From Lactifluus volemus (taxonomy: Eukaryota > Basidiomycota > Agaricomycetes > Russulales > Russulaceae): a DNA stretch of 64,000 nucleotides. This document shows, piece by piece, positions 3,252-56,500 of the stretch (positions are counted from its first letter, which is position 1; every line of letters begins with the position of its first letter). The stretch spans positions 1 through 64,000 of the forward strand of contig WTXI01000091.1 in assembly GCA_022376515.1 (NCBI GenBank), in the 5' to 3' direction. The notes beneath the pieces were generated by a model. That model saw only the letters and a list, made by a program, of their open reading frames with translations. It did no database searches and was not told where the DNA came from. The translations under genes were made by a program, and so were the position numbers.

Positions 3252-3856
3252 TTTGGTCCAGCTTCGGCGACGACCGGAAGAACGGGAGCAAGAGCGTTTT
3301 GAGTTGAAGGGTTCTTGCTTGCTCTTCTCTTTTGTTTTTTCGATATCTTTGTCGTCAGGTACTAGCGTTTTGCATGCATTTATGGGGCCGGAGAATTGTA
3401 ACGATATGATGGCTTCTCATGGGACGCCCTAGAGATTTTTTTACCAGAGTCATATCTATACATAATCGGAGGTCGTCTGTAAATCGTGAGGCCGATGCGT
3501 TGACTATCTTATCTCTGACGTTACACCCCATCAAAGTCACGAAGAGCCGGTCTATACTGTAGCGGAAATGTAGTGGGGTAGCGGACAGCGGAGCACTAGA
3601 ACGACACGAAGCGTCGCCTCGGCGCCTCGTGGCCAATGAAACACTCCGGAGATCCAACACCTTTTCATTATTTGTATTTCTCAGATAAGTTGGGATAACG
3701 CCAAACTGGAAACTAAATAAATAAAAACAAAAACTTCGGAATGTGTATGTCTTTCCGAAACCTCAACGTATGAAGGTCGGAGGGGTATCAAAGTTATCGG
3801 AATATTTAATACAGTATAATAGTTGTATTATGAACCGAGGGAAACATTAGATGTAC
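3252..3856. other. Intergenic DNA with a second relic of the NLR upstream unit
   Basis: Just after the oxidase stop the strand is T-rich (possible 3' end). Positions about 3540-3640 match 26985-27050 (ggggtagcggacagcggag, then gcgtcgcctcg), which is the leading edge of the NLR duplication unit. This unit continues after the LINE insertion at 13042. No gene seen. Confidence 0.5.
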
Positions 3857-3871
3857 AACAGTCCAAATTTC
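3857..3871. repeat. Target-site duplication of the LINE-like element, left copy
   Basis: AACAGTCCAAATTTC here recurs exactly at 13027-13041 directly after the poly(A) tail. A 15-bp duplication with an A tail at one side is the signature of target-primed reverse transcription. Its outer edge overlaps the A run, so it may be 1-2 bases shorter. Confidence 0.85.
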
Positions 3872-3906
3872 CAGCTCCTTTTCCTCTTACCACCATCATC
3901 TCACTC

Positions 3907-4175
3907 ATGCCTCCTCGCCAGAAACATCTCTTGTCCCCTCCTGCGGACTCTGCCCCTCCTACCCCCCCCCCTGCTCTCCGCCCCCTCGCTCTTGAAGACT
4001 TCTCCAACGTTGAAGCCGTCCATCACCGCGTGACTTTGCTTGCGGTGGTCATTGATGCCGCCTTGCTTGAGGATCCCGTCGGGGCTGCTGTTGAGATTCA
4101 GCGCCTCCTGTCCCTCCCTAGCCTTCTCCCCTTCCTGTCCCCCCCTCCTCCTCCTCCTCCTCCCCCTCCCCCCGC
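3907..4175 (+). CDS. LINE ORF1-like protein, 5' part (interrupted)
   Basis: Starts at MPPRQKHLLSPP; a Pro-rich head is followed by a helical segment with DAALLEDPVGAAVEIQRLL and a poly-Pro run encoded by a CCT/CCC tract at 4141-4173. The frame is cut by the hAT at 4176. It resumes at 11735 in phase: 269 plus 877 bases equals 382 codons including the stop. The upstream in-frame extension to 3851 lies in the target duplication, so the ATG at 3907 is preferred. Confidence 0.7.
4168..4175. repeat. 8-bp target-site duplication of the hAT element, left copy
   Basis: CCCCCCGC immediately before TAGTG; the same 8 bases follow the right end at 11727-11734. hAT transposases make 8-bp duplications. Confidence 0.85.
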
Positions 4176-4310
4176 TAGTGTTGCCGCAGCTCGGCTAGCC
4201 GCGCCCCGACTTGGTAAGCCGCAGCTTTTTCCGGGAACGGCTTGACTTAGCCGAGTTCTCTACTCAGGAGCGGCAACTTCGACTTAGCTGTAGCTCTCAG
4301 TCGACTTGAG
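4176..4310 (+). repeat. hAT left terminal inverted repeat and subterminal region
   Basis: TAGTGTTGCCGCAGC followed by CGGCT with one mismatch pairs with the complement of the right end. Further in, the GACTTAGCCGAG motif (about 4243-4255) and GTCGACTTGAGCC (about 4300) also have inverted partners near 11590-11670. Such subterminal motifs usually bind hAT transposase. Confidence 0.75.
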
Positions 4311-5258
4311 CCACACAAATTAAATTAAAAAAAATTCCTTTTTTTCTGCCCCTCCTAAGTTCAGCTCTCAACACATATCAATCCAAATATAATATTGTTG
4401 TAAGGTAGAATCTTTATGCTAATAAAAACTATGAAGAAGGATATGCTGAAAGGACTGGGGGCCCTGAACAATGGTCTCATCGGCGCATCGCTGTCGACGA
4501 GAGTAAGCTGGGGGGTGCGGACTCATTCGGGGGGATGCCACACAACAACGCCAGTCACAGGGATCAGGCGCTCGGACACCTTGATGTAGTGTGAATGACC
4601 CCGGCCCCCGGGTGGTGCTTGAGGCGGTGGATGTGGTAGGGTGAACCTGGGCGCAAGTTGTTAATGCCCCCAAAAAACGAGTCAGTGACGCACCAGTTTG
4701 AATGTCTCACCCTCATCCCCAACTCAGGAGGCAGGCATGGGCGGGCGTGTGTGAGACAACGCGGGCGTGGACGTGGACGAGAAGGTGTCGGCAGAGACGA
4801 AAGGGAGGGAAGGGACATCAAAGAAAGTCAAAAGAGTCAATTTGAGGAGTCAAAAAAAATTTCGCGACACACTGGCATGGGCCATGCTCACAGAGGGCGG
4901 CGACAGAGAGGAGGGCGAGTGGAGGGGCATCGTGAAAGAGAACTTGGCACTTACATAACCAGAACTTCAATTTGTTCAAGTTCGCTCGCGCTCGTTAATG
5001 GAAAACCTCACCCAAGCCTAAGATTCGGGAAACCAAGCTACTGTACACTGTTTACAGACTACAGTGCATACAAAACAACTTGTGTGTCAACACAGTATAA
5101 TAAAGGTAATAATGTTCGGAAATGGAAACAGCAACTAGTTAGAGTTGCCTCTTGCTAGACTGTAGGACGTGGAGTCTTGTTCGTAGAGTGTAACCTGCAT
5201 ACATTGTTAGAATGCAATAAGAAATTGGTAGTGAGTATGTAATATGTATGCAGGAAAC
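4311..5258. other. Non-coding left arm of the hAT element
   Basis: A/T-rich to 4430 (including ctaataaa at 4418), then G-rich. 4205-4440 recurs in shortened form at 10166-10285, and a GA-rich block near 4780-4880 (agtcaaaaaa followed by cgcgac) resembles 11330-11390. No convincing protein. The part after 5160 (complement of 5165-5230) could hold extra 3' exons of the kinase. Confidence 0.45.
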
Positions 5259-6322
5259 TCACCCTACACGACGATGATTGTGTTTATCGGGACGTGACTG
5301 ACGCTGCTTGCGACTCCGAATCTTGGCTCTGACAGATGCATCCCAATCAAACATCCTGTCATTGTGAGTTCCTTCTTGTGATAGGAGGTCGTTGAATAGG
5401 CCATAAATGTGGTCATAGTCAGGCTTGTCATCGAAAGAGAGCGATTGGCAGTGTTCGAAGAAAATGCGGAACGCCTCCGGGAGGCCCAGGAACAACTTGT
5501 GCGTGGTAATTCCTCGTTTGCTTTCCAGAACGGCGCTCTCATCTCCCAAGTCCTGCCATGGTAAGAAGCCCCAAAGAAAGTAAAATAAAATGTAAGCAAG
5601 GGACTCCAGGTCGTCACGCCTTCCAAGCTCTACGCCTGAGTGACTATTCATCGGTGCGAAGGCAGTCGTTCCTATGAAGTCAAGGCCTGTAATGTACGGG
5701 ATGTGCTTGTGTGTGTTGGGATCCCTAAACTCCTTCGCCAGTCCGAAATCAATGAGGTACACCAAATCGGACCGGTCCCCAACACCTATAACGATGTTGG
5801 TGGGTTTGAGATCGCGGTGAATGATGTTACGAGAGTGAATGTATTGTAGGCGACGAAGCTGAACATAGTCCATGTTAGCTCATTGGTTATGGCAGCAGAA
5901 GACACGTTTACTTACAAGTTGCCCAGCCAGGAGTAAAACAGTCTTCATCGTGAATCGGAAACCACAGCGAGCAAAAAGGTCGTCAAGAGATGGGCCAAGG
6001 CACTCGACTGCCATCACATTGAAGGAAGACTCTATGCCAAACCAATGCACAAGAGGGATGCCAACCCCTTTGCCAGCATTAAGTTTCTTGTAAACAAGAA
6101 ACTCGTGCTCCAGGGTATGAGGTGCACTTCTCATTTGCTCAAATTTGAGGATGATGTTATCCCCAGGGACCTCAGATAAAAGATCACATGCAAGGTATAC
6201 TTCATCTAATCACCAAAGCTTATGAGCCAAATACAGAAGCACATGTTTTCTGACATACGAGCAGGTCCTGAGGACAGTTTTCTTCGCAACCTGAACCTCC
6301 CAGCTACTCGGACAATTTCCAT
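5259..6322 (-). CDS. Casein kinase 1-like Ser/Thr protein kinase, inside the hAT element
   Basis: CK1-family kinase with three exons read on the minus strand: 6322-6259 (MEIVRVAGRFRLRRKLSSG), 6205-about 5913 and 5858-about 5259, with GTATGT and GTAAGT donors. Visible elements: degenerate glycine loop KLSSGPAHEVYLACD; ATP-binding Lys in IILKFEQ; GPSLDDLF; catalytic loop IIHRDLKPTN; DFG in YLIDFGLAKEFRDPNTHKH; the CK1 hallmark RRDDLESLAYILFYFLWG and LPWQDL. The CK1 signature GTARYASINTH is altered to GTTAFAPMNSH. Key catalytic residues are present, so an active kinase is possible. The stop at 5259 may be an unspliced donor (GGGTGAGT), so the C-terminus is uncertain. It lies between the hAT left arm and the transposase, in the same direction. 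Likely captured from a host CK1-like gene; its function for the element is unknown. Confidence 0.85.
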
Positions 6323-6882
6323 GTAAATTGTGAAGATTCGAAACAAGTCTGGCAGAAAGTCAGATGACATATCTTATCATAGTACTGAAAAACTAGGAAT
6401 TACTCACAATACCGAACTTGAACAGATGTAGTGTGGTGAATGGCACAATGAACGTTGCATTCAACGTTGCAAAAGAACAACTTGATTACATAACCACATT
6501 CAGGGCCGGTGACTCGTTGACTCCGGTGAGGAGACCGAGGTAAGGAACGCGCGAAGCGAGATAGCGAAGATAAGACAGGTGAACGTGGCATACACCCTGT
6601 GTCGGAGTTTACAATATTTCCAAAATGGCATGCTTAGCGCTCGCAACAGCCAATCAGAGTCTGAAATATGGCGTGTGACATTGCATGACTGATTCGGAAG
6701 GAAGGGTGATCCTAGGGGGGAGGGATAGTACGAGGTACAAGGATATGTCCGAGCAGAAATATCAAGAGAACAAAGGGGGCACGAGGCAAGCTAGTTAGAA
6801 AAAAGTACAGAGAAGACACGTAAAAGTGTAACAGTACGAGGTATGAGATGGCGTTAGAGCATAAGATGTCCGAGTCAAACGA
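6323..6882. other. Spacer between CK1-like gene and transposase gene inside the hAT
   Basis: No reading frame of note. It must hold the promoter of the kinase gene (minus strand) and the 3' end of the transposase gene. A short palindrome (AACGTTGCATTCAACGTT) lies near 6450-6470. Confidence 0.4.
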
Positions 6883-9517
6883 TTAGTCCTCCGATCGGCT
6901 GATAGATTGAATGATATTGTCAACATCTTCCTGAGAAGCATCGCCCTTACTCAACCCTTCCAGGAGATCTTTATCTGGAACAACCTCAAGCATCAGCTTC
7001 TCCGGTGTTATCCAACCTTCCATGAAATCGAGACGCTGCGTCTTCAGCTGGAACTTTTGCATTTGAAGCGCCTCCATCAGGAGAGGGCTGATACGATTCC
7101 TTCGCTTTGTGTCCGTTTCAGCGCTCGACGAAAAGACGCGCTCACAAGGCACAGAGGAAGCCTGAATTGGGAGGTAATCCATCGCGATCGCAAATAGGGT
7201 GGGGAATATAGAACTATTAGTCTGACACCGCCAGGGGACATTCTGTCAGTAGACGTCAAGTAATCATTATTCAACTTACCTCCCAGAAATGAAGAATGTC
7301 GATGGTCTTTGACGAAAGCACTCCCATAATATAGGATTGGTATTCCTGTTCAACAGTCTGCACAGTTGTACGCGAATCTTCAAAGCCAATGTCATCTGAC
7401 TCTTCGAGGCCATATTCTGCCGCAAGTGCGAAGTATGTCGGCATGGCTGTGGAACGACCAGTTGCCCGCGTCGACGGCTCTTCATTATTGCCGGTAGCAA
7501 GACTTGGACTGTTCTCGCGGTAATCACGCATCTTGTGAATTGAAAATGAGATGCTGTCCAAAACGATATATATTATAGTAGTCTCACGAGTCGCAGAATA
7601 TATTCTTCGCTTGTTTTATGGTACTTCTCCTCCCAGTGCTTAGTGATCCAGGACATGCGTATCGCAGGATTCAGCACTGCAAAAATGAATGTCAGATTCG
7701 TCGGGATTAGGAGTAGAAGCTTACTTACACATCGTAACGACATAGACCATAGTGTGATCCATTCGTGAATAGTATTTATATGCTAATGTTAGGCCAGGAT
7801 TGATGAGCTCCGTCAACTCGGGCCGTTCATTACCGAGCTTCTCCCAACTTGTCATGAATTGCTCGAACGCAGGAATCGCACCACACAAGATCGGGGTTTT
7901 CTCGCCGGACATAATTTGCTGTACCTTGTGCGGGACCTGTTGGCAAATCGGAGAGTCAGGTCACAATATATTGACGCGCGTTTGTAACTTACGCCTAGAA
8001 TGACTTCGATATGCTTCATGTGGTTCCAGTTGTTATCTGAGATCTTGTACTTGGCAAGGTCACTATTATTAGGAAGGGCGAGGAAGTAATCGACGGCCTG
8101 TTAGATGGATCGATTAGCACGCACCACTTTCCACAAGCTGAACTCACCAGTCGCAACATTCGGAGTCTATTAAGCATGTGATAGACCGAATCCCATCTCG
8201 TTTTCACGTCTTGCAGAAGCTCCAACTCTGGGAGCTGAACTATTTCCTCAGGATCTCCTTGCTTAAAATAGCCTTTCTTGTTGCCGGTCCTGATGGCATC
8301 ACGGAAGGCATCTCGACGCGTGCCCGATGCCCGAATGACTCTAACCACAGAACGCGCAAGCGCTATGCAGTTAGACATGTCCGAGCTGTCCGTCTCATCA
8401 CCAGATGAAGACTCATTGCCATCCGTAGCTCCTACATTGCGGATTACGCATCCAGAACAAAGATCGACGATATGACTATAGCACATCACCTGGCGATCAG
8501 CTGCGTTGAAAGGGACGTCCCTATGGATTAAAATAGGCTGGAGGACCTCCATCATGGACTTATTGGCCGACGCGTTGTCCATAGTGAAATGCCCAATCTA
8601 AAAGAAATCGAAACCATGCAGCGTAATTCCTCCGAGTGAACATACCCTTACTTTGAGAGTAATGCCAGCCCTATCGAGAAGCTGCAGAACGACATTGGCG
8701 AGTGTTTTTCCATCATGTCGTCCATGGTGACGATGAAAAGCGATGAGCGCTGTCCTGAGCTGCAAGGGCGAAGTGCGCGTAATCCAGTGCGCTGTCATGG
8801 CTAGGTAAGATCGACGATTTTGATCCGACCACATATCCATCGTCACCGAAATTCGCCCTTTCGCATCCTGTATACATGGTGGGAATACATCAAATAAGAG
8901 CATAATGTAACGTACGTCAAGGTTCGCCTTTAGTTCCAGGAACTTCATTCTCCAATTGTTAATGACCAGTTCACGAAGTTTTGTCCGATGCGGAATCATT
9001 GATTCTTTCAAGTCGCTTTTTAAATAACGAAGCAAGGATCGAAATTCAAGGCATTCCACAAGATTCAGGGACTTGAAGTCAGAAACGTCAATATAAATAA
9101 AGACAAAAAGGGCGTAGATAACTTACCTGATCATCTACTACCATCCAATCGATTAGATACTTGTGGAAGGTGTCCACTTTGAACTCGACAGGCTGTTCGC
9201 CTTGTGATGTAGCCGTCTCAGTAGATGCCACTGACTCATCCAGAATTTTCCATCCTTTCTCCTTTACAGTAGCCCAGTACAAGTCATGGTGGTCGTTCTT
9301 GAGGTGATTGCGTTTGGACGTAGTCGACGTGGTTAGTTTATACGAACGAATGGAATTTGCTTTCCTGTGTAATGTTTACGCAAGTCAGAAACCGATTGAA
9401 ATTAAAAAAAAACGGGAGCACTCACTTGCATTCTTTACATAGATGACGGTCCTTAGTCGCTTCAAAGAAATAATGGATATCCTCTGCGTTTTTCCTTTTG
9501 CGCGAAGTTGGTGGCAT
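6883..9517 (-). CDS. hAT-family transposase (BED zinc finger, DDE, C-terminal dimerisation)
   Basis: Cut-and-paste transposase, nuclear, about nine exons on the minus strand. N-terminus MPPTSRKRKNAEDIHYFF leads to a BED zinc finger (HLCKEC, then RNHLKNDHHD after an intron). Then VDTFHKYLIDWMVVDDQ and VECLEFRSLLRYL; first catalytic Asp in VTMDMWSDQ; second in TMDNASANKSMM; the Cys/His element CYSHIVDLC; the conserved Trp in DVKTRWDSVYHML; and the C-terminal dimerisation domain MDYLPIQASSVPCERVFSSS ending at 6883. The exons join in frame with GT-AG introns (for example HFWE joined to NVPWRC). I chose the ATG at 9517 because the longer upstream frame (to 9741) is out of phase with the BED finger. 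Probably functional. Confidence 0.88.
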
Positions 9518-9741
9518 TTCAGGATCATTGACGAGAATAACGTCAGCATTAATCTCATTAGCAGGGGTAATAGCGGCGGGCTGTCGGGAGGCTCATCGCC
9601 TGGCTCATAGACATCCTCTAGATCAAAGTCTTCGCCTGATTCCTGAGTATTCGCTTGTGGACGGGCAGGAGCCCTGCGAGTTCGCCGAGGTATGGTGAGA
9701 GACGGAGCGCCAGGAGCGGTTCGATGCTTTTGGGGCGGCAT
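9518..9741 (-). other. Possible frame-shifted N-terminal extension of the transposase
   Basis: From the ATG at 9741 runs MPPQKHRTAPGAPS, then an acidic stretch (GEDFDLEDVYEPGDEPP). It is compatible with a transposase N-terminus, but it needs a one-base shift near 9590 to enter the frame of NDPEMPPTSRKRKN. Either a damaged start region or an upstream reading frame. Confidence 0.35.
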
Positions 9742-10165
9742 GGATTAGAATTTGGAAAGTTGGGTACGTACCGATCTGGGGGAAGGGCATCAAATATACT
9801 GCCAGTGGCATGTTCGTGGACGATTCAGGATGGATACTGTAACAGCGCACAAAGAAGGTGAGGACTGTAGGTTTACGGTCATGATCATGGACACGTAACA
9901 GATGCCAGAAAATTTTCAGGAATAGAAGCAGAAACACGCGCAGAAAAATAAATCTGTACATATTGACATTTAAGTTCAAAATAACCGACAGATGGCCGGA
10001 AAGCTAGACACTGTACACGTAAGTTAGATAGAACTGCTAACTTAGATAAGTAAAGATCTGTGAGCGCGCCGGGGGCAAAAGCAGAAGAATGGCGATCCAG
10101 TAGTGGAATTTGGGCCGATGATGATGCAGGCGAGTTTTCTTTGGTGTGTCTTCGGAAAGGGCGGA
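9742..10165. other. Upstream region of the transposase gene
   Basis: A/T-richer DNA without recognised motifs; expected to contain the transposase promoter reading leftwards. Confidence 0.35.
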
Positions 10166-10290
10166 CTTGGTAAGCCACAGCTCTCGTCGACTTGAGCCAC
10201 ACAAAAAAATAAATAAAATTTTTCTTTTTTTTCGCCCCTCTGAAGTTATATGATCATTATGCTAATAAAGATTATGAAGTTCATTACTAC
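10166..10290 (+). repeat. Internal direct copy of the hAT left subterminal region
   Basis: Matches 4209-4435 in the same orientation (acttggtaagcc, gtcgacttgagccacaca, the T-rich tract with gcccctc, then atgctaataaa..atgaag), but lacks about 100 internal bases. The element therefore contains two versions of its left arm. Confidence 0.65.
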
Positions 10291-10532
10291 TCAGCCCCTC
10301 CTTCCTTTGAAAGTGCCTAGACATGTCCAAAAGTGAGGAGTGGGCACTGCCCATCGCGGGAAGCGACGCACGGCGATCACAGGCCAGCTGCGGTTGCTCC
10401 TGTGGCGGCGAGGGCGAGGGATCCTCCCAGAGGCAAGGGTCAGCGGTAAGCCAACCGTGTGATGCTTTATGTGAGATAGCAGGTCATCGAGGGAGGGCGA
10501 GCTGCGTGCTTGAAAATCTCGCGCGAGCCGAG

Positions 10533-11327
10533 TCAGCTGCACACCGTGCAGCGCGTACGTTCTTCACCTTCTGCACTACCGTTTGCGACTGCAATCAGAC
10601 TGCAGAGAAGTCGTAGACCTCCCCCGCAAGCGGTTGCGGTTGCGGTCGCAGAAGACGGCGTGCGACGCTTGAGGTACCGCTGCATTGGCTGCAGACCTGA
10701 AACTATGGGTGGACGGCCATGAGGCAAGGCCTTGAGCATCGGTGAGCAGGCTAGAACCATGCTGATGAGGTAAACTACCTCGGAGTGACCCAAACATTGG
10801 AGTCCTGGCATGCTGAATGAGCTCTGCAGGAGGAGGGAATATGGGACATCCAGCAGCAACGGCAGTGGAGGAGCCCGGGGAGGAGGGGAAGCATCATCAT
10901 GGGTGGCCGGAGCGGCGGAAGGATTACGAGAACGAGGCGTGGTTTCATCCGCACCTGAAAGTGCTGATTCGATTGACTGTCTCCTGTCATGACCCAGTGA
11001 ACGAGAGGTTGGGATGATTGTAGCAATAGAATCCCTGACAGCCGAAGGGAACAGCGGGACAGGCATGATCGGTCCTGCAGGACCAGGAGATTGGGGCGCG
11101 ATATACTGGAACTGCTGGTTTCCCGTGCCGGTCACCTTGAAGGTCATCAATGTGATGGTGGTGGTGACCGGGCTCGAGCTCTGTAAGCGAGCGTTGGTGG
11201 CAGCGGCGGCAGTTGCTGAGGCAGGTGCAGGGACAGCAGCAGCAGGGAGGGAGACATCACCGTTGGTGTTGGGACAAGCATGACCACACGATGGCCTGGG
11301 TGGACGAGGTGGGGAAGCGGACGACAA
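10533..11327 (-). CDS. Doubtful 264-residue Ala/Pro/Ser-rich frame in the hAT right arm
   Basis: An open frame starting MSSASPPRPPRPS, of low complexity (AASATAAAATNA-like stretches), with no recognised domain. The DNA is GC-rich and has no splice pattern I trust. It overlaps the duplicated arm and may be chance. Confidence 0.2.
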   Translation of the reverse strand: MSSASPPRPPRPSCGHACPNTNGDVSLPAAAVPAPASATAAAATNARLQSSSPVTTTITLMTFKVTGTGNQQFQYIAPQSPGPAGPIMPVPLFPSAVRDSIATIIPTSRSLGHDRRQSIESALSGADETTPRSRNPSAAPATHDDASPPPRAPPLPLLLDVPYSLLLQSSFSMPGLQCLGHSEVVYLISMVLACSPMLKALPHGRPPIVSGLQPMQRYLKRRTPSSATATATACGGGLRLLCSLIAVANGSAEGEERTRCTVCS

Positions 11328-11589
11328 AGGGAGAGAAGGAAAATAAAGAAATGTCAGTGTGAGAAGTCAAAAAAAAAAACGCGACGCACCGCTGACTATG
11401 CCTACGGAGGCGTGGGAGGGTGAAAGGCTGCCAAAGGGCAGCAATCGCGGCATCAGAGAGGTAGGTGTGGCAAAGAGAGAGAGGATAGCGAGAGGGGGGG
11501 GGAAGCGGCGAGAGTGAGAAGAGTGAGAGGGGGGGACGCGGCAACAGAGAGGCGGGAAAGCAAACCAGAGGTTGCCAGGGGCTTGAGTC

Positions 11590-11726
11590 GACTCGTGGTC
11601 ACGGCTAAGTCGAAGTCATGGCTCTCAGAGCCGACTCATTTCTCACGATCAGCTCGGCTAAGTCAGTCGATCACGCGACTGGCTCCGGCTTTCGGGTCGA
11701 CTTTGAGCCGGGCTGCGGCAACACTA
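11590..11726 (-). repeat. hAT right terminal inverted repeat and subterminal region
   Basis: Ends in GCTGCGGCAACACTA (11712-11726), the complement of the left tip. It carries GGCTAAGTCG motifs at about 11603 and 11653, matching the inverted subterminal motifs of the left end. Confidence 0.75.
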
Positions 11727-11734
11727 CCCCCCGC
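11727..11734. repeat. 8-bp target-site duplication of the hAT element, right copy
   Basis: CCCCCCGC, identical to 4168-4175. Confidence 0.85.
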
Positions 11735-12611
11735 CCCCTTACCTCTGGACCTCTCTGTGATCCAGAACACCCTCCAGTCGCTCTCTGTGGCGATGGCCGA
11801 CCTCCAGAAACAGGTCAATGCTCCTGCCCCTCCCCCCCCTCCCGTGAAGGCCCCCGCTGCTGCTAAGGCTCCTGCCAAAGGCCCCCCTAAAGCCCCCTCC
11901 CCTAAGCCCTCCCCCCCTTCCTACGCGGCGAAAGCCGTTGCCAGGCCCTCGTGCCCCAGCCTCGTGGTCTCCCTGGCTTCCTTCCTCCCACCAGGTGCCC
12001 CACGCCCCGACCCCAGCACGATCTGCGGAGTTCTAAACACGGACCTCGCGGCTTCCTCCCCCCCTCAACCTCCCCTCTCTGCCGTGAAATGGACGGCGAA
12101 AGGCAACCTCGTTGTCTTTGGGGGTCCCCATGGGACTCTCGCCACCCTTCAGGCCTCCTCCCCTCACATCTCGCGTATTCTTTCCTCCCACCTTTCCCTC
12201 CCTGCCTCCTCTCCCCTCCCTGCCCCCCGCCCTAATGTCAAATGGTCGCGTGCCACCGTCAATGGCGTCCCGACCGGAGTCTCCCCTTCATCTGGTGCCG
12301 TGTCCCCGGATGAGTGTCATCGTGCCCTGGTTGCCCTCAACCCTGCTTACGCCTCCCTCCCGATCACCCTTCGCCCCTCATGGGTCCGCTCTCCCTCCTC
12401 TTACTCCACCGGCGCTGTCTCCTCCCTCATGTTTGCCTTCGAGGATCCAGACGGCTCTAGCCTCAAGACTCTGCTTTCCGATCGTCACCTCTTTCTCTTC
12501 GGAGTTCGGGGCGTCGTGAAGAAATGGAAGCAGAAGCCCCCTCCTGCCAAGACTCCCTCAAACCAGGCTCCCCCCCCTCCTTTCCAGGTGCCACCACCAC
12601 CTCCGGTCTAG
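11735..12611 (+). CDS. LINE ORF1-like protein, 3' part
   Basis: Continues the frame of 3907-4175: a short helical segment (VIQNTLQSLSVAMADLQKQ), an Ala/Pro/Lys-rich basic linker, then a folded part with VKWTAKGNLVVFGG, LQASSPHISRIL and LFLFGVRGVVKKWKQK. The layout (helix, basic linker, then a part resembling the RNA-binding region of basidiomycete LINE ORF1 proteins) suggests a nucleic-acid-binding gag-like protein. No CCHC knuckle is seen. It stops at 12611 with no ORF2 behind it. Confidence 0.65.
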
Positions 12612-34204: not shown

Positions 34205-37106
34205 ATGCCCGCCACCTCGGCTCACTGCTGAGTAACGTGACGTCATCTGATCAGACGCGTCCCATCGTTCCTCTCCACACCTCATTCCGCGACTTCCTAA
34301 CAAGTAAAAAGAGCAATGAATTCCACGTCGACCTTAGGGATTCGCACCGTGAATTGGCACATTCGTGCCTTGGATTAATGGTCGACAAACTCAAGTTCAA
34401 CATTTGCGAACTGGAGTCGTCATATCTTGCGAACAGCGATGTTCCAGACATTGAATCTCGAATTTCTAAGCACCTTCCACCTGGATTATCGTATTCCTGC
34501 GTTTTCTGGGAAGCTCATTTAGAACGTGTTGTTTTCGAGCAAGACCTTTTCGTGAAATTTCGATCCGTGTTCGAGACGAAGTTTCTGTTTTGGTTGGAAG
34601 TGCTTAGCGTCAAGAGCAAAGTGAATGTTGCTTCACCAGCGTTGTCATCTTTGAAGACATGGTTGTGTTCTGACCAGAGGAAGGTATGTACGTCCCATAA
34701 TTGAATATCTCGTGTAGTGATTGTCGCATAAAATCGCAGCAGTCTTCCCGAACGGAAATGGAAAACTTCGTAGCATTTGTGAATGACGCATCTAAATTTG
34801 TGCGATATTTCGGGAAGGCTATTGCAAGGAGCGTTCCACATATATATATATCAGCACTGCCATTCGCGCCAACCTCTTCCTACGTTGTGAAACGTTATCT
34901 TGGCCAATTTTCTCACACGTTCTCCTTGGAACGCGGGAAGTTGACTCATTGGCCAGCACTGGAGATGACCATTCCGGCACATAGAGAATCAGTCAACTCT
35001 GTTGCATTTTCACCAGATGGGCGTCGCATTGCCTCGGGATCACGCGACAGTACGATTCGGGTGTGGGATGCTACAACCGGGGATGCCGTAGCGGGTCCAT
35101 TTACTGGACACACTGATGGCGTGTATTCCGTTATATTCTCGCCAGACGGGCAACGCATCGCTTCGGCCTCGGACGATGGTACGATTCGGGTGTGGGATGC
35201 CGCAACCGGAGAAGTCGTAGCACGCCCATTCACCGGACACCCCGATTGGGTCAATTCTATTGCATTCTCACCGGACGGGCGGCGCATCGCCTCGGCCTCA
35301 ATAGGTTGCACCATTCTGGTATGGGGTATTGCGACAGGACAAGTGATATCTGGCCCGTTTACTGGTCACTCCGATCGGGTCAGATCTGTCACATTCTCTT
35401 CTGACGGGCAGCGTATTGCTTCCGCCTCGGACGACTTCACGGTTCGCGTGTGGGATGCCGCGACAGGGGATATTGTAGCAGGTCCATTTACTGGTCACAC
35501 CGACGCGGTCAGATCCGCAACATTCTCTCCAGACGGAAAGCGCATCGCTTCGGCCTCGCGGGATCGCACGATCCGTGTGTGGGATGCCACAACGGGAGCG
35601 GTCGTAGCGGGCCCATTCACTGGACACACGGATAAAGTCAACTCTGCCAAATTTTCGCCTGACGGGCAGTTCATCGCTTCGGTCTCAGACGACGGCACGA
35701 TTCGCGTGTGGGATGCAGCAACTGGAGAGGCTGTAGCAGGCCCGTTTACTGATCACCTTGATCAGGTATATTCTGTTGCATTCTCCCCAGATGGCCAGCG
35801 CCTTGTCTCGGCCTCATTCGACTGCACCATTCGTGTGTGGGGTGTCGCAACCAAGGAGACCATGACAGGCCCCTTTACTGGACACACCAACTGGGTCTCA
35901 TGGATTGCATTTTCACCAGATGGCCAGCGCATCGCTTCGGCTTCGTACGATCACAGAATTTGCTTGTGGGATGTCACGACAGGAGAGGTCACCGCGGGCC
36001 CATTTACTGGACACGCCGATCGGGTCAGATCCGTTGCATTCTCACCAGACGGGCGGCGCATTGCTTCGGCTTCACATGACGTCACGATTCGCGTGTGGGA
36101 TGCTTTAACAGGAGAGGTAGTAGCGGGCCCGTTTATTGGACATACCGATTGGATCAACGGTGTTGCATTTTCACCTGAGGGGGAGCGTGTTGCCTCGGCC
36201 TCGTATGATCACACAGTTCGGGTGTGGGATGCCGCGTCCGGAGAGATCGTAGCGGGCCCATTTACTGGACACACGGATACGGTCTATTCTGTTGCATTTT
36301 CTCCGGATGGCCATCACATCGCCTCTGGATCAAGAGATTGCACCATTCGTTTGTGGGATGTTGCAAAAGGAGAGGTTATAGGACACCCATTTATTGGACA
36401 CACAAGTTCGGTGTTTTCTGTTGCATTTTCTCCAGATGGGAAGCACATCGCTTCAGCCTCGAGTGACCACACGATTCGTGTGTGGGCTACCACAACAGGA
36501 GAGGCCATAGCGGGCCCATATACTGGCCACTCTCGCCCAGTATTCTCTGTTGCGTTCGCGCCGAATGGACAATGTATCGCTTCGGCCTCGCATGACCGTA
36601 CGATTCGCCTGTGGGATGTCACAACAGGAGAGCCCATAGCGTCTCCGTATATTGGACATACTGATCAAGTACTCTGTGTTGCATTCTCACCTGACGGGAA
36701 GCACATAGCGTCAGCTTCAGCTGACCGCACGGTTCGTCTATGGAATGCCCCATCAGGACTCGGAGAGGTGTCAAGCCCGATTCCTGGATATTCCAAATCG
36801 GTCGACCCTACGGTATCACCGGACGGGCAGCGTTCTCAAGTCACGGGCTCACAAGATCGCATGGTTCGTGTGGGGAAGGTCAGAATGGAGGATACTGAGA
36901 AGGTCGATTTTATGAACGAGTTTCTGGTTGATAGTGATGGGTGGATGTGTGGCGAAGAGGGCGAACTTCTGTTATGGATCCCCCAGATTCACCGGCCATA
37001 CTTTCATAGATTTAACACAGTCTGGATTGCGGGCAGACACGACACGTGGCTTGATATGACGAGCTTTGTCCACGGATCGAATTGGACTGCAGTACATGGT
37101 CCATAG
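34205..37106 (+). CDS. NLR copy B, 3' part: NACHT tail and intact WD40 propellers
   Basis: Begins inside the NACHT C-terminal part (HLGSLLSNVTSSDQTRPIV, ICELESSYLANSD) to about 34683, then an intron to 34740 and one uninterrupted exon. That exon has a lead segment (APHIYI-like VPHIYISALPFAP) and 14 WD40 repeats of about 43 residues (consensus like [22 protein letters not shown]). A degenerate fifteenth repeat and the conserved tail (DGWMCGEEGELLLWIP, FHRFNTVWIAGRHDTWLDM) follow. No internal stop over about 2.4 kb, in contrast to copies A and D. The 5' end is cut by the TIR element, so the nucleotide-binding core is lost. An ATG at 34165 or 34701 might still start a propeller-only protein. Confidence 0.8.
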
Positions 37107-38010: not shown

Positions 38011-41000
38011 TTAGATACCATGGTATACTGTAACCCAATCAAACCCGTGCACAAAGTTTGCCAGTTCAAGCCAAGTTTCGTATCTGCCTGCAATCCAGAC
38101 GGTATTGAACCTATGGAAATATGGTCGGTGAATCTGGGGAACCCACAGAAGAAGTTGTCCATCTTCCCCACACATCCACCCATCATTATTAATTAGAAAT
38201 TTGTTCATAAAATCGACCTTCTCAACATCTAGTCCGACCTTCTTCAGACTAATCGTGCGATCCCGTGAGGCTGTGATGTCCGGCGAGGATACAATAGAGT
38301 CGACAGATTTTGAGTATCCAGGAGATGGCCTTGCTAATGCTCTCATCGGGGTATCCCATAGGCGAATCGTGTGATCTTCCGAGGCTGAAGCAATGCACTG
38401 CCCGTCTGGTGAGAATGCGACACAAAACACCCGACCAGTGTGTCCTGTAACTGGGCACGCTATCGCCTCCCCTGTCGCTGAATTCCACACGCGAATCGTG
38501 CGATCGTATGAGGCCGAGGCAATAAGTTGCCCGTCAGGCGAGAACGCGACGGAATTGATCCTATCTGTATGTCCGGTGAATGGTGCCGCTACGACCTCTC
38601 CAGTTGCGGCATCCCACATGCGAACCGTGTTATCCGCCGAGGCCGAGGTGATGTGTTTCCCATCTGGAGAAAACGCGACAGACAAGACCGACTGAGTATG
38701 TCCGGTAAACGGGTCTGCTATGGCCTCTCCCTTTTCAGCATCCCACACACGAATTGTGTGATCTCGAGAGGCCGAAGCGATGTACTTCCCATCTGGGGAG
38801 AATGTAACAACATAGACCCGATCGGTGTGTCCGGTAAATGGGCCCATAACGACCGCTCCTGTGGCAGCGTCCCACATGCGAATGGTGCGATCACTTGAAG
38901 CCGAAGCAATATTCCGCCCGTCTGGCGAAAATGCGACTGACCAGACTTCATCAGTGTGTCCGGTAAACGGACCTGCTGCCATCGTTCCTGTTATGGCATC
39001 CCACACCCGAATTGTGCGATCTTCTGAGGCCGAGGCAATGTGTTGACTATCTGGCGAGAATGCAACCGAAAAAATACGACCGGTGTGTCCAGCAAACGGG
39101 TCCCCTGCGACCTGTCCTGTTGTGGCATACCACACGTAAATTGTGTGATCGTACGAGGCTGAGGCAATGCGCTGGCCATCTGGTGAGAATGCCACTGCGT
39201 AGGCCCAATTGGTGTGTCCAGTAAATGGGTCAACAACTACATCCGCCGTGGCACGCCACACACGAATCGTGCGATCGAACGATCCTGATGTGATGCGTTG
39301 TCCGTCTGGAGAGAACGCAACAGAAAGGACCTGATTGGTGTGTCCGATAAGGGGGCCTGCTACAACTTTTCCTGTCGCGGCATCCCACACGCGGATCGTG
39401 CCATCCAATGAGGCCGAGGAAATGAGCTGCCCATCTGGCGAGAAAGAAACAGAGGAGACCCGATCGGTGTGTCCAATGAATGGCCCCACTACGACTTCTC
39501 CTGTTGCAGCATCCCACACATGAACCATGCAATCGTTTGAGGCTGAGGCGATGAGCTTTCCGTCCGGTGAGAAAGCAACCAAGCGGACAGAGGCAGTGTG
39601 TCTGGTGAACGGGCCGGCTACAACCTCACCCGTGGCGGCATCCCACACGCGAATTGTGCAATCTCCTGAGGCTGAGGCGATGTGCCTCCCGTCTGGCGAG
39701 AATGCAACACTACTGACCCATTTGGTGTGTCCAGTAAATGGGCCTGCCACAACAGTTCCCTTTGCAACATCCCATACGCAAATGGTGCCATTTCCCAAGG
39801 CCGAGGCGATGCGTTCCCCGTCCGGAGAGTATGCTGCAAAAAAGACCATGGCTTGACTGGTAAACGGGCCTGCTGCGATCTCGCCTGTTGTAGCATCCCA
39901 CACCCGAATCGTATCATCCCTTGAGGCCGAGGCGATGTGCTGCCCGTCAGGAGAGAATGCAACAGAGCGGACTGGGGCAGTGTGTCCGATAAAAGGCCCC
40001 GCTACGAGCTCCCCCGTTGTGGCATCCCACACCCGAATCGTGCAATCGCGCGAGCCTGAGGCAATGCGCTTCCCATCCTGTGAGAACGCAACAAAGTCGA
40101 TTGGTTCTTCGTGTGCATGAATCGTCATTTCCAACGCGGGCCAATGAGATAGCTGCCCGCGTTCCAAGCACAACGTACGAGGGAATAGATGAAGATAATG
40201 TTTGAGGATGTGGGAAGAAGAGGGTGCGAATGGTAGCGCAGAGATGTAGATATGCGGCGCGCTCCTTGCCATGGGCATCCCAAAGTACCGCACAAACGCG
40301 GACGCATCATTCACAAATGCCAACAAATTCTCCACAGTTTGAGAAACCTGTTGCGATTTTATGAAATCGTCACCCAGGCCTTATTCAATGAGAAAAAGTA
40401 CACACCTTCCCCTGGTCAGACTGCAACCACCTCTTCAGAGACGACAATGCTGGTAAAGCAACGCTCACTTTGCTCTTGATGCTGAGCACTTCCAGCCAAA
40501 AGGGAAATTTGGTCTCGAACAGGGATCGAAGTTTCGTGAAGAGGCCATGCTCCAAAGCAGCATGTTCTAAGTGGTGGTCCACGAAAACGCAGGCATACGA
40601 TAGGGCAGGTGGGATGTGTTTCGAAATTCGAACGTTAAGGTCCAGGACATCGCTGTTCGCAAGGTATGATGACTCGAGTTCGCAAATGTTAAACTTGAGC
40701 TTGCCGAGCATCAAACTAAGGCAGGAATGCGCCAACTGACGATGGGCATCGTCAAGGTCCACATAAAACATATCGTTCTTCTTTCTGGTCAGAAAGTCAC
40801 GGAATGATGTATGGAGAGGAACGATGGGACGGGTTTGGTCCGATGAAGTCACGTTACTCAGCAGCGAGCCGAGGTGACGGAGCATTTCAAGAACAGAGTC
40901 AGAATCCTCGGCATCATCAATGGGGGTATGGCGACGCAAGGCGATTAAGGAATGTATGGAAAGCGGTTCGATTGCGGCAAGAAGCTGTCCCATGACCGAA

Positions 41001-43436
41001 CGAAATAGAATTTGCGCTTCTTGCGGTAAGAAGTACCCCTCGAGGATTTCTTTGTATAATTTGTCCAACGGATCTTGTCCCCTGCGATCTTGAGAGTGTC
41101 CTAACAGGCGCTGAACACACTTTTTCTTGCTGAATCCAAAACTAGCAGGAGGGCTATTTATGAACCCAGATGCAGCAGCAGCCCATTGGAACAAGCCCTC
41201 TGCCGCCTTTGCTAGTTCGGCACCATGGTCGTTGAACACGTCCCGAGAGAGTTTCTTCTGAAGATACAACCGAATATCTTGCTCCGTCTTGGCAGCCAGC
41301 TCAGTGTCATCCATGTAGAGCGTATCGACAGATGACGCTTTTGCGAATACAGGTTCGACGCCATCTTCCAGCCTTGAGGTGACGAATACGCGGAACTTTG
41401 ATGGGAGATCGACAAGATGTTCAGCAAGAAAGGTGTGTAATCCGACTTCGCCAATTGCATCTCCGCTTTCATCCAATGCGTCAATGACGACGAGAACCGG
41501 AACAGGTAGCGACAGGTTCTTCAGCGGTTCAACGAGGAGGGATTCGAAAAGTGTGCGATAATCTCGGGAATTGCGAAGAGAAGATTTATCCTTGATAACT
41601 CTCGCGAGGGTGTGTTTGAACGCAAGATTACGATCGGAGAGGTCACGGGCAATCGTCGTGAAGAGCTGGTAAGCTTCGTGCTTGGACTGCTCGCCCCGCA
41701 AAAAAGTGAAGTAAGAGGCGAGATACTTGTCGTCGAGGCGACGTGCAACCTCATGTGCAATTGAAGACTTTCCCGTGCCAGCCTGCCCAATGAGAACGAG
41801 CCCACGTTTAGATTCCGGATCCTCGACCCACTTGACAATATGGTCCAGGAAATCTTCTCGTGTGCCTGGAAGACATCGCCTCTCATCACCGAATTGCCAG
41901 CCCCCCCTATAAGGCAATTCTCTTATTTTTGCGTCCAACTCTGTGTGGCCCTTATCAGACCAACGATCCGACGATCTTGTCACTGTTAAAATTACGTACC
42001 AGCCTCCATTACAGTAACCTCGGTGGTTATAGCGGCATGGGTGAGGAAGCGGTCTCGCAATCGGATGAGGTTGGTGCGATACTGTGCTATTTTGCCATCA
42101 ACTGGGCCGAAGATATTCTTCAAAATCCGTTTTCCTGTAAACCACATGTTGGTAATGACCAACGAGAGAGACCAAGACGACGCACCAACTTGAACGTCCT
42201 CCGCATACAATGTGATAAATTCGGCACATTCGGTGACACATCTCAGCATGTTCTCTAGGATCGTTGCTTGCCTAGACTCTGGTCTGATGTCTCTTAAGGC
42301 GTCTGCCTCTTCCGCAAATTGAAATGCATCGAGCATCGCCTCAAGTAGTGTTTGGACGTTATCGTCACGCTGAACTTGCCGTAGCAAAGCCTGGAAGTAA
42401 GGTTAACAATGCCCCATGTCCTGGGAAAAGACACGGAGGCGCACCTCGGGTATCTTTGAGAGCGTGGCCCATGCTAGACTTGCAAAAGGGTTAAGCTGAA
42501 CAGCGAACGTTAACTCAGGGACGTGTAAACCAAAAAAGACACTGGGCATACCGCTGCAATTGGACTGACGGTGTCCATCACCCACTTGATAGCATTAACA
42601 GCACTTTTCCACGTAATCATCGCATCGATGGTGTCGACAGCTTCTTGGGCACGACGGATAGTGTCACGTGACATCGCGATCTGGCTTCCTGATATTTGCT
42701 GCGCAGCGGTACCACTCTCAATGGGACTCGTAGCACCCCCTTCAGTCACAGGGATAGCAACTGTAGAGTCCGGGCTGTTGACTACTCTAGTCAGAGAGGA
42801 ACTTGTGATTGCTGACGCGGCGATCATTAAGGATACTGTGGCTGACTCCCGGGTCTGTGTATTATTTCCAGCGTTGCCAAGAACGATATCAAGTTCTTCA
42901 ATGTAGAACGCTCAGCTAGAAAAATAAGGAATAATTCCAAGAACTAGACGAACCATCTCGGGGTTCACAGGTGATCTCCTGCCTTCCGATAAGGATGTCC
43001 GTCCCCATAGTCCTTTTCGCGTAAAGAGATATCGCGATACGGGAGGATGGTTGTACTGCGCTGCAGGAAACTCAGTTGTACGCAGGAACAAAAAAAAAAT
43101 TAGGACATTTCCCACAATGTGTCGACGTTCTCGTTCCATTCTACACGCCGTTGAGCCGCACTTCGGACAGATCGTGTCTGCCATCTTCTCTCCCCGTAAG
43201 TCACCGTAGCGTAAAATCGTCTGTGTCTCCAAAGGAGGGTTTTGAGACGGGGAACGTTGTGCGCTCTGAGGACTAACGAGACCAAACCGTTTTTTTAGTA
43301 AATTTGTCAGAGCCGAATCATAAAAGATTACTTTACCGGTCACTTGGAGACTTCGAGGAAGTGAGCTTGGTCGCATTTCGCTGACCTGAGCGCGACTGAT
43401 GGACCCTTCTCCAGCGGTTGAGTTCGGGACCATCAT
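38011..43436 (-). CDS. NLR copy C: intact C2-NACHT-WD40 STAND NTPase
   Basis: About nine exons and about 1,650 residues, all joining in frame with GT-AG introns. C2 domain (LRAHNVPRLKTLLWRHRRF, WNENVDTF, then ISLYAKRTMGTDILIG) at 43280-42960. The helical region (SRDTIRRAQEAVDTI, FASLAWATLSKIPE, LRQVQRDDNVQTLLEAM) runs to about 42000. NACHT domain: Walker A GQAGTGKS at 41788-41765, Walker B VLVVIDALDESGD near 41500, and a helical tail with HLGSLLSNVTSSD. After an intron at about 40400-40350 comes the propeller exon: 14 WD40 repeats plus a degenerate one, then a tail of about 60 residues (DGWMCGEDGQLLLWVP, FHRFNTVWIAGR). A cytosolic receptor: WD40 repeats likely sense a ligand, NACHT oligomerises, and the C2 domain may target membranes. 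The ATG at 43436 gives the longest exon leading into the C2 domain. Confidence 0.9.
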
Positions 43437-53501: not shown

Positions 53502-56500
53502 ATGCTATCGAGTGGGACCCTTCAGCTGACCGGTACGTGTCATACTTTTTCGCTCTGACAAGCAAGTAAATTGACTTTTGTCCACCTGTCAGTCCTCAGA
53601 GCACACAGTCTTCCTCGTCTCAAGACCCTCGGAGTCCTTGCGAAGCAGAGAGAATATTTGTTACTGTAAGCGACGGAGAGAAAACATGGCAGACACGATC
53701 CGTGCGGAGCGTAGCTCAACGCGTGGAATGGAACGAAAGCGTCGACACCTTGTGAGAAATGAGCAATTTTTTTGGTTCTTATATATAATTGAGTCTCCCA
53801 CAGTTCCGTACAACAACTCTCCACAATTACCATATCTCTATATGGAAGAAAGTCCACGACGACAAACATTCTTGTTGGAAGGCAGGAGGTTGTTTGTGAA
53901 CCCCGTCGCGGTCGGTCTAATTCATGGGATTTTACTAATACACCTGGCTGATTGTCGTACATGCAGAACTTGAAATCATTTCCGTAGTCCTGATGGACAT
54001 GCTGGACGCCCAGCAGAGCCGGTCACAGTCTTCTTGATGGTTACCGTGTCAGAAAACACGAGTTCCTCTCTGACAGCGCCAGTCAACGCCCCGAGCCCTG
54101 CACCAGCCGATATTCTGTTTCTGAAGGAAGTGCTGTGCGTCTACAGCCCGAACTAACGTTGAAACCGTACAACTCACGTCGGGTATTCCTCCTTGACTAT
54201 TTATCCAGGGTGGCCTTCCGATTGAGACTGGTACTCTTGTGCGACGAGCCGAGGCCGTGATAGAGACGTCACGGACTACTCTCCGCGCGCCGAGGAAGCC
54301 ATCAATAATATCAATACAGTAACAACGTGGAAAAGTGCTGTTACCGTCATGAAGCGGGTGATGGACGCTGTCACTCCGATCGCAGCAGTATGACCAATAT
54401 CGTCCTTGTCCATCATCCTGAGCTAACTCCCGTCCTTCAGCTGAATCCTTATGCAAGTCTAGCATGGAGTCTGCTCTCGATGATCCCCGAGGTACGTCCC
54501 CTTGTCTTATCCCATATATGGGGTACTCACTCTTTGTGTTCACCTTTCTGCTAGGCTTTGCTACAACAGGTTCAACGTGACGATAACATCCAGACGTTAC
54601 TTGAGGCAATACGCGATGCCTTTGAATTTGAGGAAGAGGCGGACACTTTGAGGAACCTCAAGCCAGAGTCGAGGCAGGCGAAAATCCTCGAGGAGATGCT
54701 AGAATGTGTGTCCGAATCTGCCAAATTTATCAGATCGTATGCGGAGGATGTGAACCTTGGTACGTCATTTTAGCCTCTCTCGTTAGTCATTGCAAACATG
54801 TGATTTGTAGGCAAGCGTTTTTGAAGAGTATTGTCGGCCAAGTGGATGACAAATAGATCAGTATCGCGCCACCTTGTCCAATTGCGAGAGAGTTTCCTTT
54901 CTCGTGCTGCTATCACGACAGAGATTGCTGTGCTAGAAGCTGGTACGTACTTACGGTGAAAAGGTTGTCAGATTGTCAACCTGACAAGTGGACACAGAAC
55001 TGGATATGAGAATCAGAGAATTGCCTTACAAAGGAGGGTGGCGATTCGGTGATGAGAAGCGCTGCTTCCAGGCACACGCAAAGATTTCCTGGACCATATA
55101 ATCGAGTGGGTCGAGAATCCGAAATCTCAACGTGGTCTTGTCCTCCTCGGACAGGCAGGGACGGGAAAGTCTTCGATTGCACACGAAGTTGCACGTCACT
55201 TCGACGACAACTGTCTCGGCTCTTACTTTGCTTTTCTGCGAAAGGAGCATTCGAAAAACCGAGGCTTACCAGCTGTTCACGACAATCGCTCGCGATCTTT
55301 CTTATCACAATCCTGCGTTCAAACTTGCCCTTTGTCGGGTGCTTAAGGAGAAGCCGTCGCTTTGTGGTGCGCGAGACTATCGTGCACTCTTTGAAAGCCT
55401 TCTCGTTGAACCGCTCAAGAACGTACCACTTTCTCGTCCGATTCTTATTGTTATCGATGGGTTGGATGAAAGTGGAGATACCATTGGCGATACCGGATTA
55501 CATATGTTTCTCGCAGAACATCTCATCGACCTCCCAGCCGAATTCCGCGTACTCATCACCTCAAGGCCAGACGATGGTATCGAACCTGCGTTCACCGAAA
55601 CATCACCCGTCAACAAACTCTACATGGATGACAAGAAACTGGCTGCCAAGACAGAGCAAGATATTCTCGCGTATCTTCAGAAGAAGCTCCCTCGGGACGT
55701 GTTCAAAGATTATGGCGTCGAGCTAGCAAAGGCAGCAGAGGGCTTATTCCAGTGGGCGGCTGTTGCCAGTGGATTCATAAAAAAACCTCCTGCTAGTTTT
55801 GGCTTTAGCAAGAGGAAGTGCATACAGCGCCTCTTGGGCCACTCTCGAGATCGGAAAGGACAAGATCCGTTGGACAAGCTATATGAAGAGGTTCTCGAGG
55901 GTTCTTCAAGCCGCATGAAGCACAAATCCTGTTCCGTTCCATCATGGGGCATCTATTTGCTGCGATCGAGCCGCTTTCAATCGAATCTTTGATTACTCTG
56001 CGTCTGCATGCCCCAATTGATGACCCCGATGATTCAGATCCCGTTCTTGAAATGCTTGGTCACCTCGGCTCACTGCTGAGTAATGTGACGTCATCCGATC
56101 AAACACGTCCCATCATTCCTCTCCACACATCATTCCGCGACTTTCTGATCACCAAGAAGAGTGATGTATTTTATGTGGACCTGGTCGATGCCCACCGCGA
56201 GCTGGCACATTCGTGCCTTGGTTTGATGCTCGACAAGCTCAGATTCAACATTTGCGAACTGGAGTCGTCTTATCTTGCGAACAGTGATGTCCCAGACATT
56301 GACTCTCGAATCTCCATAAACATCCACCAGCTCTATCATATTCCTGCATTTTTGGGACGATCATCTAGAACACGTTGCGTTCGAACAGGACCTCTTCGTG
56401 AAGCTTCGATCCCTTTTCGAGACGAAGTTCCTGTTCTGGCTGGAAGTGCTTAGCCTCAAGAGCAGTGTGGGCCTTGCATCACCGGCGTTCTCGTCTTTGA

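Follow-up and report, generated by a model that had tools for sequence, protein, structure and literature searches.

To our knowledge, transposons of the hAT superfamily, which include Hermes, Ac and the fungal Restless, normally carry a transposase gene only. Here we describe a hAT element from a 64,000-nucleotide stretch of Lactifluus volemus DNA (Agaricomycetes, Russulaceae; assembly GCA_022376515.1, contig WTXI01000091.1, positions 1–64,000) that has a CK1-like protein kinase gene between its ends. This stretch, hereafter the window, is contig C620 of a genome assembly of 62.4 Mb in 628 contigs. The element resembles Hermes in its 8-bp target site duplication (TSD), its short terminal inverted repeats (TIRs) that start with TAGTG, the PF05699 C-terminus of its transposase and the matches of transposase profile and model to Hermes; it differs in that its lineage adds a second conserved gene.

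Pack-type transposons and Starships are mobile DNA with genes beyond those for movement. The window element likewise carries a gene beyond movement; however, this additional gene appears to be an old and fixed component, unlike variable cargo. Lineage-specific expansions of kinases with unclear cause are documented in fungi, as for the FunK1 kinases of Coprinopsis, Paracoccidioides and Coccidioides, for which the accessible part of the source states no transposon linkage (PMC3203195). The element kinase, by contrast, comes from a different kinase family. As far as the papers were accessible, no kinase-bearing hAT is described in the open-access literature searched (outside Repbase and most subscription journals). 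We conclude with reasonable confidence that the window element, the transposase of which is frameshifted, belongs to an old lineage of hAT transposons that have two genes, one of them for a dedicated CK1-like kinase.

Structure of the element

The element occupies window positions 4176–11726 (7551 bp) between two exact copies of CCCCCCGC, its 8-bp TSD (4168–4175 and 11727–11734). The 21-nt TIRs (4176–4196 and 11706–11726, plus strand) pair at 20 of 21 positions (95% complementary), and the same ends occur beside different flanks in other copies. Both genes lie on the minus strand: read from the right end, a multi-exon transposase gene (9741–6886) is followed, about 560 bp further on, by the kinase gene.

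The transposase C-terminus matches PF05699 with 27.3 bits, against a cut-off of 21.4. A profile of transposase relatives matches the Hermes transposase in the PDB (E = 4.3e-14), and Hermes is also the top Foldseek match (E = 1.8e-11) of an AlphaFold2 model of one relative, P0121, with a mean pLDDT of only 57.9 and a TM-score of only 0.25. An earlier note on the window, made from the sequence alone, had described a nearly fully open hAT transposase; the assignment to hAT stands, but the window copy has a frameshift in exon 1 when compared with the copies on contigs C80 and C86, in which this exon is open.

The kinase gene model comprises exon 1 (6322–6259), which was aligned to CK1 delta and ends in a degenerate glycine loop, exon 2 (6205–5916) with the ATP-binding Lys, and exon 3 (5858–5262, plus the stop codon that ends at 5259) with the HRD and DFG motifs; the introns are of the GT..AG type. 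Its frame is open throughout and yields a product of 317 amino acids that matches PF00069 (E = 3.6e-18), and its closest solved structures in the PDB are CK1 delta (E = 1.8e-83) and HRR25 (E = 3e-82). The catalytic Lys, the Asp of HRD and the Asp of DFG are all present, as the same note had read for a three-exon CK1-like kinase. There is also a partial match of residues 126–211 to PF17667, which we take to be the FunK1 family; membership was ruled out because only positions 304–385 of the 387 in that profile are matched.

Insertion as one unit

Because CCCCCCGC is C-rich, it is weak evidence by itself; support comes from empty sites and from the differing duplications of two further copies. 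The empty-site query consisted of the two 300-base flanks of the window element joined with one TSD copy (600 bases). All 600 bases were found uninterrupted at C533:1948–2546 (97% identity) and C591:163340–163936 (96%), and the joint of the flanks is also spanned at further genome loci with 72–83% identity. These uninterrupted targets at two other loci show that the whole 7.55 kb went in as a single insertion, rule out a chance TSD in C-rich DNA and, together with the differing TSDs of other copies, bear out the duplication and inverted TAGTG ends that had first been noticed.

We refer to the family of the window element as A. Kinase sequence is present at seven family-A insertion loci: C620, C11, C84 plus C80 (read as one copy split by contig ends), C596:57675, C312, C86 and C168. 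At three of them both ends are seen, each time with a different TSD: CCCCCCGC (exact) in C620, CTCCCTCT (exact) in C84/C80, and ATGCCAAC/ACGCCAAC (7 of 8 bases) in C11. The equivalent of window positions 4808–5947, including kinase exon 3, lies outside the sequence seen for C84/C80; the C596:57675 and C312 copies stop inside the transposase; C168 has deletions; and C86 is an older copy (94–95% identity) with gaps, the right end of which is absent from its contig. Family-A copies at 97.7–99.2% identity imply that movement has been recent.

The copy on C11 (C11:49890–66716; L005, L009, L013 and L052) retains both ends and was later split by three insertions of long terminal repeat type, which begin with TG, end with CA and have 5-bp duplications; the largest has 446-bp ends that are 99.8% identical. 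Treating C461 and C11 as two insertions was rejected, as they share the left flank and the internal insertion points, and they were counted once.

The earlier note had named two findings that would speak against a kinase-bearing element: that all other copies lack the kinase and the one here is a single decayed insertion, or that the kinase is framed by insertion boundaries of its own. The left end of family A was found with at least 92% identity at eight loci, and six of these hold the kinase. The other two are C84, which is cut by a contig end and has its kinase on the other half, C80, and C596:1158088 (92%), which keeps the left 1 kb only and has no kinase. No boundaries frame the kinase, and its region is collinear in other copies, so that a nested insertion was rejected. 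Shorter relatives also exist (81–90% identity; C212 twice, C334:1443112, C21, C596:222391 and C98), and neither gene was seen in the stretches of them that were examined. A further locus, C334:1459685–1463157 (L016–L019), holds an old A-family transposase split by palindromic inserts of about 170–200 bp from two families, which resemble miniature inverted-repeat transposable elements, and by a 341-bp insert; in the stretch examined, the kinase-bearing left part of this copy was not found.

Distribution across the genome

Protein searches of the genome gave at least 130 kinase matches (125 of 160 candidates scored) and at least 123 transposase matches (73 of 253 candidates scored). For the pairing count, transposase pieces without a C-terminal match were left out. 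Among the matches listed, 28 of the 30 transposase C-terminal matches of the lineage have a kinase match at most 3 kb downstream on the same strand. As a control, we considered all matches to the hAT dimer domain (PF05699) in the genome (n = 103, some genes giving two): a kinase lies within 3 kb of 28 matches, in every case downstream and in the same orientation, where chance alone would give about 1.0, and the other 75 are without one. The kinase is therefore a mark of a single hAT lineage and not of the superfamily as a whole.

Merging the kinase matches at E ≤ 1e-10 gave 39 loci among the matches listed. A lineage transposase adjoins 27 of them, four more are pieces of such elements (C461, C168:165k, C11:52k and C11:3.9k), and the remaining eight, which include the host HRR25 gene, are not known as element parts. 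Many of the genome's kinase gene copies (31 of the 39 strong loci) thus belong to elements of this lineage, and for this genome the suggestion that such elements could explain kinase expansion is supported. These loci also bear on the idea that the kinase serves the fungal host as adaptive cargo and that the element only spreads it. Kinase relatives are numerous in Russulaceae, as such a role would allow; for example, one 90%-identity cluster of B-type kinases (P0150), named Russula decolorans, has 152 member sequences. However, so large a share of the strong kinase loci consists of such elements or their pieces, with host HRR25 among the other eight, that we regard host benefit as improbable. 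The Russula decolorans cluster may instead be another burst of such elements, and hints that they are the source of some of the CK1-like expansion in Russulaceae.

Four subfamilies were distinguished: A, with the window element, and B, C and D, which include C399, C20 and C596:6376, respectively. Over the stretches compared, ten B copies, among them C399, show 98–99% identity; C125 has 76% identity to B over 5 kb, and the B-like relatives at C168:214.9k and C614:61.5k are 72–73% identical. The kinase-side end of B is GCAACACTA, with the same terminal motif as in A; this 18-base end is present at the kinase side of nine of the ten B copies (C334 is without it) and, with one mismatch, in C125. 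For B, element ends were seen at the kinase side only, and C and D are known without their ends. Kinase and transposase insert as one unit and are paired across four diverged subfamilies.

Origin and age of the kinase

The subfamilies are far apart. Query-anchored transposase identities are 47% for A–B, A–C and A–D, 49% for B–C, 40% for B–D and 39% for C–D; the kinases of A–D are 35–50% identical. The A and B kinases share 38% identity, lower than the roughly 44–48% of either with HRR25 proteins, as would follow if related hAT elements had independently captured different CK1-family genes several times. Against this, in a kinase tree of 43 rows A–D group with 25 relatives (their sources include Russula, Lactarius, Piloderma, Phlegmacium and Tricholoma) in a single clade with 100/98 support that excludes the nine fungal HRR25 and the five other CK1 proteins in the tree, and a quick tree of 63 rows agrees on the single clade. 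The kinase introns are, by our own reading, at the same two places in all four subfamilies (the start of D intron 1 being unsure), and gene order and orientation are the same in all four. The single clade has to be read with its long branches in mind, that of D above all; YCK-type fungal CK1 was left out of the tree, and the relatives were a selection from the matches listed for A and B as queries. We nevertheless consider several captures unlikely. The transposase tree joins B and C (100/99), leaves A and D unplaced and agrees with the kinase tree where it is resolved.

The element kinase is like CK1 delta/HRR25 in its whole kinase domain, with Lys, HRD and DFG, and in its best PDB matches. 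It differs in its identity of only about 44–48% to HRR25 orthologues, in forming a long-branched separate clade, in being mobile and multi-copy and, in family A, in its degenerate glycine loop. The host HRR25 gene (C1:1742792–1743909) is 92–93% identical to Tephrocybe CK1, and the window kinase shares at most about 50% identity with it. One element could have transduplicated a host kinase recently, in the manner of Pack-type capture, and the introns of the kinase are what a capture at the DNA level gives. The distance to host HRR25, in place of a captured piece close to a host donor, and the same arrangement in diverged subfamilies make such an event very improbable. The proposal that the element spreads a host kinase therefore holds in one respect, in that the kinase moves with the element, as the empty sites and other copies indicate, and fails in another, as this distance, the separate clade and the four subfamilies speak against recent pick-up.

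The match of the host HRR25 gene is interrupted where intron 2 of the element kinase lies, which fits an origin of the element kinase from an intron-bearing HRR25-type gene. In one relative, P0003 (342 amino acids; longest contig 1323 bp), the sequence reads straight through both intron places, as would be expected of a spliced transcript or of an intronless gene. We infer that an intron-bearing gene of CK1 delta/HRR25 type was taken up once, before the subfamilies split.

Conservation of the kinase

We assessed conservation in 43 kinase relatives chosen among the matches listed. The catalytic Lys is present in 41 (the other two have gaps), the Asp of HRD in 41 and the Asp of DFG in 42. In family A, C620 and C312 have an open kinase frame across the full 951 bases, and C80 has one across the 322 bases seen; in seven other B copies (C120, C145, C379, C457, C71, C181 and C202) one open stretch covers the place at which the C399 kinase is frameshifted. 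The GxGxxG pattern of the glycine loop is retained in the B and C copies read, the kinase frames of which are broken. Relative to the window copy, the ratio of nonsynonymous to synonymous change (omega) for the kinase is 0.30–0.44 in C596, C312, C11, C461 and C80, and 0 over 70 codons in the right C11 piece. For the transposase, omega in family A is 0.38–0.61. On these grounds we think it likely that the kinase is a conserved, functional second gene, a view held slightly less firmly owing to stop codons in exon 1 at four family-A loci.

These stops are among several observations that weigh against a conserved functional pair. They fall at residue 13 in C596, C11 and C168 and at residue 5 in C86, four of the seven family-A loci, and the kinase has gaps in C11, C461 and C86; only C620, C312 and C80 could thus make a whole kinase, unless exon 1 is misjudged. 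Shared exon 1 stops could reflect common ancestry, recurrent change or such a misjudged exon. Kinase omega is 0.88 in C168 and 0.92 in C86, and all omega values are hints, because changes are few and branches are shared. The window kinase has SSGPAH in place of the GSGSFG of HRR25 and so departs from GxGxxG; the loop is degenerate in A and varies among relatives. A full HRD is found in only 27 of the 43 relatives, the others having HLD, HCD, HQD or single odd variants. One D kinase copy (L084; C596:6360–10010), one of four own-genome readings, has HRH for HRD while retaining Lys and DFG, and D is possibly a pseudokinase branch. Two lineage transposase C-termini, C146 and C608, are unpaired, no kinase was found within 3 kb of the dimer-domain match of the B-like copy at C168:214.7k, and the 28 pairs stem from a few subfamilies and do not represent 28 independent events. 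The A and C transposases have acidic Ser-rich loops, but phosphosite counts in such loops are uneven across relatives and give no more than a weak lead to the substrate.

Such decay is what would be expected if the kinase had been trapped long ago between the transposase and one end and rides along as a passenger, without aiding transposition: broken kinases are common (exon 1 stops in four of seven family-A loci, the C399 frameshift, a broken frame in the C20 kinase of subfamily C, HRH in D), and a gene between element ends moves whether useful or not. However, neutral cargo is expected to decay or vanish, whereas the catalytic residues are mostly kept over a large divergence and the kinase is present at 28 of 30 lineage loci. 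Loss is possible, because shortened relatives exist in which neither gene was seen. Broken genes are also not peculiar to the kinase: each of the two genes is disrupted in some copies, and the transposase has four stops each in the C86, C11 and C334 copies besides the frameshift in the window copy. We therefore consider a passenger kinase unlikely, and favour one retained since it is useful to the element.

Other features of the window

On the transposase side, a repeat of left-end sequence (4208–4226 plus 4300–4361) is found at 10164–10247 (plus strand) and also in C80, C11 and C86. The subterminal region from there to the right TIR (10248–11705) has no recognised domain and is also present in the shortened relatives that showed neither gene. 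One of these, C334:1443112, has the left end joined directly to the equivalent of 10173–11564, without kinase or transposase; such a structure would result from a deletion between the repeats or if the long element had a composite origin.

The sequence into which the hAT inserted (3823–4175 and 11735–12611) is a proline-rich repeat frame with many relatives in the genome; by eye it resembles ORF1 of long interspersed nuclear elements, and Pfam gives no domain there. Elsewhere in the window, frames at 34701–37106 and 38011–41983 have 14 and 13 WD40 repeats, respectively, one of them beside a frame for an ATPase of NACHT/NPHP3_N type, and a second NPHP3_N fragment lies at 55132–55992. The WD40-repeat and NACHT/NPHP3_N-type frames are probably those of NLR-like fungal receptors. 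An Rfam scan of the window gave no matches, a scan of the window for bacterial promoters and terminators, which is not meant for fungi, gave no signal above shuffles, and a scan of viral contigs with the kinase as query found no relative.

Proposed function and implications

CK1/HRR25 kinases have roles in silencing, repair and cell-cycle timing, and host kinases affect eukaryotic DNA transposons. A kinase retained by the element may phosphorylate its own transposase, or a host factor that is needed for or opposed to transposition, and may thereby set the activity, location or timing of transposition. If the kinase is a functional second gene, its own transposase is the main substrate that we would tentatively put first, being the simplest target because kinase and transposase come as a pair; a host silencing or repair factor is possible with less confidence, and some other substrate seems rather unlikely. 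In the piggyBac and piggyBat transposases, N-terminal sites predicted for casein kinase II are reported to damp transposition (PMC11707139). This offers a precedent for control by such modification, with a different kinase and in another transposon superfamily.

We therefore propose, as a reading with close to an even chance of being correct, that a lineage of cut-and-paste transposons has had a dedicated kinase as its conserved second gene since before its subfamilies split, that this kinase phosphorylates either the transposase or host proteins of defence or repair, and that the lineage is a main cause of CK1-like expansion in Russulaceae and other Agaricomycetes. If so, an element lineage with its own kinase as a fixed part would represent a new layer of transposon control, and the paired genes would allow the co-evolution of kinase and transposase, and the target of the kinase, to be studied. 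It would also provide a direct cause for puzzling kinase expansions in mushroom genomes, in which many such genes may be transposon genes, and transposon-borne kinases would change how fungal kinome counts are read.

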